Origin: Sulfobacillus thermosulfidooxidans DSM 9293
GTDB taxonomy: Bacteria > Bacillota > Sulfobacillia > Sulfobacillales > Sulfobacillaceae
Assembly (NCBI RefSeq): GCF_900176145.1
Contig: NZ_FWWY01000001.1
Coordinates: 1,473,819-1,537,818 of the forward strand
DNA length: 64,000 bases
Direction: 5' to 3'
A program made the translations under genes and the position numbers. Each line of letters starts with the position of its first letter. Position 1 is the first letter of the stretch. The notes under the pieces are model-generated. The model saw only the letters and a program-made list of their open reading frames with translations, ran no database searches and had not been told where the DNA came from. Of the stretch, positions 48,373-50,061 are shown piece by piece.

Positions 48373-50061
48373 ATGCCTTATTCACTATTAAATTACATTA
48401 ACCCCGTGACGATTCATACGTTCTATGTGAGTCTATTTCAAGCGACGGGTGTTATTTTGTTGATGGTACTCGTGGGCGTAGGCATAAGGCATATGGTTCG
48501 TAAAAACCCCGATCATCCCGGAACTACAGAAGATCATCGGGCACTGAAGGAATCGCCACAATATCCCCGGGGCTACAATATTTTGTGGTGGGGACTGGGG
48601 ATTTTATGGCTGATTGACGGCTTGTTACAAGCTCAACCGCCGATGGCGACCAGCATGTTTGTGGACATGGACGTGGCCACCAATGTCACGGGACAACCCC
48701 ATTGGCTTTTAGTCTTGCTAGGGGCAGGAATTCAAGCCTGGACAGATCATCAAATTGCCTCGGCAGTTTTTGCCGTGTTAATCCAGATGTTCATTGGGGT
48801 CGGCATTTTATTGGGATATCGCCGTCCCCTTGGACGTATTGCGCTGTATGTCTCATTGTTGTGGAGTATTCCGGTCTGGATTTATGGTGAGGGACTCGGC
48901 AATTTATTTGCATCGGGCGCCTCGTGGTTAACGGGAACGCCAGGTGCCGTCATTTTTTATATTACCGGCGCCATTTGGTTATTACTGCCCCCAAAATACT
49001 GGACATCAGGAAAAATTGCGGAGTGGACCCGCTATCTGATGGCCGGCATTTGGCTCTTATTGGCGATATTTCAAGCACTTCCCGCCTCAGGTTATTGGTC
49101 TTCGCAAGGTCTCTATAACGTCTTCCGCTATAATACGCTGATGCCCCAGCCCGCCATATTCCTTGATCCCATTACCTGGGCCATGCACGAGTCGTCTCTC
49201 TATCCCGTGCTCTTTAATAGCATTATTGTGGCCGTTATGGCCTATTTGGGTGTAATGATGCTGATCAAACGCACGGGTAAACTGTTTTGGGCGGTGACGA
49301 TCCTGTGGATCTTTGTGAGCTGGTGGTTAGGTCAGGATTTTGGCATTGTGGGGGGCGTCGGAACGGATCCTCAAGCCGCCCCTTTAGCGCTCTTGATAAT
49401 GCTTGGCGGCTGGTGGTATGCGAGAAAGGTTGAGAGCAACCGGCCCAAACCCGTTGAGCCGTTGGTGGCGCGTTCTATGGTTAAGAAACTGGGATGGATT
49501 TCTACGAGCGTTCTCACGGCCCTGTTTTTGCTCTTCGGCTTTGCCATTCCTCAGGTGGTGGTCGCGCAAGGAGACAAACCAGCTCCCACGCCTCATTATC
49601 ACCCAGCGGCTCCTCCGACAACCTTTAATCCACATAAGTGGATGCAATATAATGTAAAAACCAAAACCGTGCATTTACTTTTAGAAGCCTCGGTTAACCA
49701 CTTTGGTTCTTTGGCGTTTGATGGTTATGCCAATGGTTTTATGACGATCACCATCCCCAAGGGATGGACGGTTGATGCCACCTTTATTAATGAACAGGTT
49801 CTTTTAAAAAACAGTGCGATGATTGTTCCCTTTGCCCAGCTGCAACAAGGGGGACCGTTTACGCCGGCATTCCCTGGAGCAACCAGTCCAGACCCCATCA
49901 CCGGAGTAAGTCATGGGGTGGTCCAACATTTTCATTTTGTGGCGAGGCAAGACGGCAAGTATGCGGTCGTCAGCGCGGTTCCGGATGGTCAATCAGATTC
50001 CGGCATGTGGGCATATTTCCTGGTAAAAAATGTGTCAAAACCCCAGATTACTGTGAAGTAA
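48373..50061 (+). CDS. Polytopic membrane protein with a sulfocyanin-like domain lacking copper ligands
   Basis: The first ~410 of 562 residues make about 11 membrane segments. The C-terminal ~140 residues are extracellular and resemble sulfocyanin: FDGYANGFMTITIPKGWTVDATFIN, HFHFVARQDGKYAVV and SGMW. In sulfocyanins the copper is held by two His, a Cys and a Met. Here LLKNSAMIV has Asn in the expected first His place, KYAVVSAVPDGQ has Ser534 for the Cys and no His, and only Met545 remains. It probably does not bind type-1 copper. AGGAGATAGGGACA precedes the ATG. Function unknown, perhaps structural or regulatory in respiration. Confidence 0.65.
   Translation: MPYSLLNYINPVTIHTFYVSLFQATGVILLMVLVGVGIRHMVRKNPDHPGTTEDHRALKESPQYPRGYNILWWGLGILWLIDGLLQAQPPMATSMFVDMDVATNVTGQPHWLLVLLGAGIQAWTDHQIASAVFAVLIQMFIGVGILLGYRRPLGRIALYVSLLWSIPVWIYGEGLGNLFASGASWLTGTPGAVIFYITGAIWLLLPPKYWTSGKIAEWTRYLMAGIWLLLAIFQALPASGYWSSQGLYNVFRYNTLMPQPAIFLDPITWAMHESSLYPVLFNSIIVAVMAYLGVMMLIKRTGKLFWAVTILWIFVSWWLGQDFGIVGGVGTDPQAAPLALLIMLGGWWYARKVESNRPKPVEPLVARSMVKKLGWISTSVLTALFLLFGFAIPQVVVAQGDKPAPTPHYHPAAPPTTFNPHKWMQYNVKTKTVHLLLEASVNHFGSLAFDGYANGFMTITIPKGWTVDATFINEQVLLKNSAMIVPFAQLQQGGPFTPAFPGATSPDPITGVSHGVVQHFHFVARQDGKYAVVSAVPDGQSDSGMWAYFLVKNVSKPQITVK

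Follow-up and report, generated by a model that had tools for sequence, protein, structure and literature searches.

What purpose could a copper-protein domain serve after losing most of its copper ligands, and why should it be joined to a membrane protein? The question is raised by a gene at 48373..50061 (+) of the window, the 64,000-nucleotide stretch of the Sulfobacillus thermosulfidooxidans DSM 9293 genome analysed here (all features of this gene are on the + strand). The frame is open, starts with ATG, is correctly placed and encodes 562 residues; its orthologs are 59-92% identical. The product joins a membrane domain to a sulfocyanin-like domain. Fusion to membrane segments had been proposed in a preliminary description which counted about 11 of them; the fusion stands, while the AlphaFold model contains 10.

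The C-terminal domain (residues 422-560, 49636..50052) is sulfocyanin-like, as first described. Residues 424-558 match Pfam SoxE (PF06525) with an E-value of 6.3e-12 and a score of 45.7 bits, above the cut-off of 21. The TIGR03094 sulfocyanin profile gives 2.4e-12 and 46.7 bits, short of an equivalog cut-off of 168.4 which is a poor discriminator here, as ligand-intact relatives also fall below it. Modelled separately (mean pLDDT 77, pTM 0.74), the domain is predicted to adopt a cupredoxin fold, and its top match among solved structures is rusticyanin (1rcy, E 1.7e-6, TM 0.58). The ligand loop is poorly modelled, with pLDDT below 50.

Type 1 copper is bound by four ligands, His, Cys, His and Met, published for sulfocyanin Q53765 as H110, C171, H176 and M181 (PMC517927). 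Alignment with rusticyanin and with ligand-intact sulfocyanins of the same order places Asn480 (49810..49812) at the first His (rusticyanin His85), Ser534 (49972..49974) at the Cys (Cys138) and Asp538-Gly539-Gln540 (49984..49992) at the second His (His143), the very replacements read in the preliminary description. Within the last of these, Gln540 aligns best and the loop is longer by one inserted residue. Only Met545 (50005..50007), at the axial position of Met148, is kept. The sulfocyanin signature C-G-I-[AL]-G-H-A-[VAQ]-[SA]-G-M-W (PMC517927) here reads S-A-V-P-D-G-Q-S-D-S-G-M-W, and the whole domain contains no cysteine. With no thiolate and neither His ligand, it should not act as a blue copper electron carrier, and the protein would be expected to hold no copper. 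We found no paper in the literature on the missing ligands.

Could the domain nonetheless carry electrons, with copper or another metal bound through other residues? Met545 is kept, His519 is invariant, and other Sulfobacillus sulfocyanins have been reported as electron carriers in iron oxidation (PMC4062416, PMC6315122). However, three of the four ligands are replaced in every ortholog, including the Cys whose thiolate defines a type 1 site, and the lack of any cysteine and the altered loop length likewise make such a carrier very improbable.

Orthologs were located on eight contigs, from S. benefaciens and further genomes resembling Sulfobacillus. These represent seven distinct sequences, the copies in G002 and G030 being near-identical; since the G030 bin is partial, the copy in it may owe its presence to faulty binning. 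Asn480, Ser534, Asp538-Gly539-Gln540 and Met545 are invariant across the orthologs found, down to 59% identity, as is His519. The complete genome of S. thermotolerans Kr1, of the same genus, has no ortholog, and the gene is thus dispensable there. Pairwise dN/dS is 0.046-0.078 in the C-terminal domain and 0.043-0.085 in the membrane domain, against 0.09-0.33 in the linker. An identically changed site in all orthologs, coupled with purifying selection, points to neither error nor decay. The loss of the copper ligands might suggest a functionless relic, but the low dN/dS and the invariance of the changed site contradict this, and we regard it as scarcely credible. The non-redox cupredoxin fold postulated at the outset is well supported by the preservation of the modelled fold, by the identical replacement of three of the four ligands and by purifying selection.

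The membrane domain is well modelled. A first helix (residues 11-43, 48403..48501) is followed by two tandemly repeated units of some 145 residues each (hhalign E 2.7e-14), the first spanning residues 62-210 (48556..49002, pLDDT mostly above 90) and the second residues 211-356 (49003..49440). The conserved motifs QAQPxM, GQP, GEGLG, W..G.PG, MPQP and WWLGQDFG..GG.GTDP, the last consisting of near-invariant columns in the second unit, lie in segments placed outside by their charge pattern. Loop charges, read by the positive-inside rule, would likewise put the C-terminal domain on the outer side.

The membrane half matches nothing in Pfam at an E-value of 1 or better. Kinship with DoxX, DoxD or MauE, suggested by the look of the repeat, found no support (no Pfam match, hhalign probability of at most 3.2%). 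Nor did kinship with HTTM proteins, whose profile matched nothing in this genome and nothing in the further members of the phylum that were searched. The closest structure is the membrane region of vitamin K-dependent gamma-carboxylase, with a Z-score of 12.4 (rmsd 4.8 over 238 residues); the mere arrangement of helices can bring models up to about 13. The two share about 11% identity and no HTTM family match, and the likeness is suggestive only.

The last helix (residues 365-390, 49465..49542) resembles the core of a signal peptide, with KK before its hydrophobic stretch and a V-x-A-Q-G-D motif (49558..49575) after it. The latter is a putative signal peptidase site. Cleavage at this point would make the gene product a polyprotein from which a secreted, copper-less sulfocyanin is freed. 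The basic residues, the hydrophobic core and the invariance of V396, A398, Q399, G400 and D401 in an otherwise variable linker are all compatible with such processing. Nine helices precede the site, however, and the motif could be structural, so that we hold cleavage to be quite unlikely.

The relatives of the membrane domain offer a broader context. About ten members occur in this genome, and others in Sulfobacillus, Alicyclobacillus, Actinomycetota and Dormiibacterota, a distribution drawn from relatives found via a pair of short motif patterns, so that certain branches may be over-represented. Many relatives in Actinomycetota, one in Alicyclobacillus and one in another genome of the same order carry a C-terminal SCO1/SenC domain; in Sulfobacillus, a SCO gene directly follows the membrane-domain gene. 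Among 96 distinct relatives, 14 are fused to SCO, 12 have a SCO gene on the same strand within 200 bp, and five begin 10-15 bp after a cytochrome c-sulfocyanin gene with intact ligands. Some copper partner was seen for 46 of the 96, a biased rate in that certain loci were fetched because both genes had already been seen on one contig, and half of the family shows none nearby. The aligned SCO domains retain CxxxC in 10 of 10 cases and the following His in 9 of 10. At one locus (L175) Pfam identifies a neighbouring CtaG, a caa3 oxidase assembly factor.

Several of these loci have features of their own. The cytochrome c-sulfocyanin fusions upstream of a membrane-domain relative, all ligand-intact, lie at L113:6389-7246 (+), L114:6037-6897 (+), L115:6648-7505 (+), L060 and L061. 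Downstream of the membrane-domain gene, L153:6873-8624 (+) and L045:5951-7639 (+) encode a SCO1/SenC domain that continues into a long, propeller-like region at the C-terminus; in Actinomycetota, a region related to the latter forms a separate lipoprotein-like gene.

In the sister group of the fused clade (SH-aLRT 95), some members lie close to copper P-type ATPases and to rusticyanin-like genes with intact ligands. Such copper islands, along with the Met and His residues of the C-terminal domain, could be taken to favour a weak binding of copper(I) or another metal, serving storage, sensing or import without electron transfer. Asn, Ser and Gln with a single Met would nevertheless make a poor copper site, and the domain showed no conserved group of metal ligands that could have taken over; we consider this reading unlikely.

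The surroundings of the fused gene itself are less informative. No SCO domain is fused to it or encoded directly beside it, the sulfocyanin-like domain being found there instead. Its neighbours are kept only in the nearest relative, for which reason reasoning from operon structure was dropped. As a lone gene among unconserved neighbours, it has a context which names no client. Two genes downstream lies a single-haem cytochrome c (window:50958-51554, +), preceded by a metallophosphoesterase with a twin-arginine signal; only the nearest relative has it next to the gene as well. Upstream, window:44100-46993 encodes a response regulator and two histidine kinases.

An interaction with an oxidase had also been named as something to check for this protein. 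Its domain might be an accessory subunit that docks to a terminal oxidase in particular, and there is a parallel in the same genome: two cytochrome oxidase operons encode, in an upstream position, sulfocyanin-like lipoproteins that lack all four ligands (L052:4847-5362, -; L053:6666-7217, +), together with COX2, COX1 and a likely COX3. Copper-less sulfocyanins do, therefore, go with oxidases. For the fused gene, however, no oxidase gene adjoins, the nearest COX1 being some 23 kb away, and the neighbourhood is unconserved, which leaves such an interaction unsupported here and oxidase docking a possible but rather unlikely alternative. On matching gene order alone, the L052 protein is very likely Sulth_0453, which has been named a sulfocyanin and treated as an electron carrier, is tied to iron oxidation by its expression and adjoins Sulth_0449-0451 (subunits III, I and II; PMC6315122).

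Ligand loss is not confined to the fused protein. Only one of the six SoxE proteins in this genome has all four ligands, and the tree contains four separate ligand-less or ligand-poor clades: the fused proteins (N,S,Q,M), a free NSL clade (N,S,H,M), a clade of 15 in which all four ligands are missing, and a two-member clade (H,S,D,L) found in a different genus of the family. Parsimony requires at least three changes. A single loss common to the fused and free NSL clades fits worse by 17 log units, although the AU test does not reject it (p 0.095). The NSL lipoproteins (L050:5903-6430, +; L073, L071, L101, L103, L198 and L069) have Asn and Ser for His and Cys, thereby matching the fused protein at the first two positions, and keep the second His and the Met. 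In the two-member clade (L199:1973-2518, -; L200:1729-2469, -), which is SoxE-like, the first His is kept and Cys, His and Met have become Ser, Asp and Leu.

By tree distance, the nearest ligand-intact SoxE proteins are the lipoprotein-like L064-L068 (HSAMIVP...CGVPGHAAMGMW), and a clade joining these with the fused domains has an AU p of 0.44. Four of the five directly adjoin copper nitrite reductase-like genes (L064:5679-6689, -; L065:3619-4596, +; L066:5436-6419, -; L067:5329-6282, -), of which the two scanned match TIGR02376 at 2e-47 and 9e-51, below the equivalog cut-off. These neighbours are possible donor-enzyme pairs.

Returning to the opening question, we favour, at a probability of roughly 0.45, a non-redox docking domain on a membrane protein that takes part in handling copper, or in maturing copper proteins, outside the cytoplasm. 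The gene product would be integral to the membrane, belong to a hitherto undescribed family linked to copper proteins, and display its cupredoxin domain outside. The membrane part would normally partner either a copper-loaded cupredoxin or an extracytoplasmic SCO1/SenC chaperone, and its task would most likely be to mature copper proteins or supply them with copper. In this Sulfobacillus branch a sulfocyanin may have become fused to the membrane part and lost its metal site while keeping its fold. The dead domain could then serve as a permanent docking module, or pseudo-partner, bringing the membrane part to a cuproprotein client. Docking appears the likeliest role in view of the selection that preserves the fold and of the membrane half's family, whose members occur alongside SCO chaperones and cupredoxins. 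The docking or assembly partner envisaged in the preliminary description fits this family context, in which SCO1/SenC or a copper cupredoxin is the usual partner; which protein is bound, and to what end, can be put forward only conditionally.

A wider proposal is more tentative. The copper-less sulfocyanins of Sulfobacillus may perhaps constitute a functional class of their own, comprising structural or docking subunits both of terminal oxidases and of a new membrane system for copper-protein maturation, with the former carrier in the fused protein acting as a built-in pseudo-partner. Were this so, some of the electron carriers proposed for iron oxidation in Sulfobacillus would not be carriers. 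The genus is relevant to bioleaching, and its iron-oxidation chain is unresolved, with published models that include electron transfer to sulfocyanin. These models would need revision if most Sulfobacillus SoxE proteins cannot hold type 1 copper. The unnamed membrane family, which travels with SCO chaperones and cupredoxins in acidophilic Bacillota and Actinomycetota, may supply a component that is still missing from the picture of how copper is handled outside the cytoplasm at low pH.

Known systems resemble the fused protein in part. With sulfocyanin (SoxE; PF06525, TIGR03094) it shares domain homology, fold and the FxGYxNG and SGMW motifs, yet it differs in the replacement of three of four ligands, in its fusion to ten membrane helices and in a score far below the TIGR03094 cut-off. 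Rusticyanin has the cupredoxin fold in common with the C-terminal domain (1rcy, TM 0.58), whereas the fused protein is without equivalents of His85, Cys138 and His143 and is not a free secreted carrier. SCO1/SenC chaperones are found in the equivalent place, adjoining a related membrane domain or fused with it, but have a thioredoxin fold with CxxxC and His, and no homology to the sulfocyanin domain. A precedent for a copper-less scaffold of the kind proposed here is SufI/FtsP of Escherichia coli, a cupredoxin-type protein which has lost its copper ligands and has been read as a scaffold (PMC2661564). Unlike the fused protein, SufI/FtsP is a soluble relative of the multicopper oxidases, acts in cell division and is not fused to a membrane domain.
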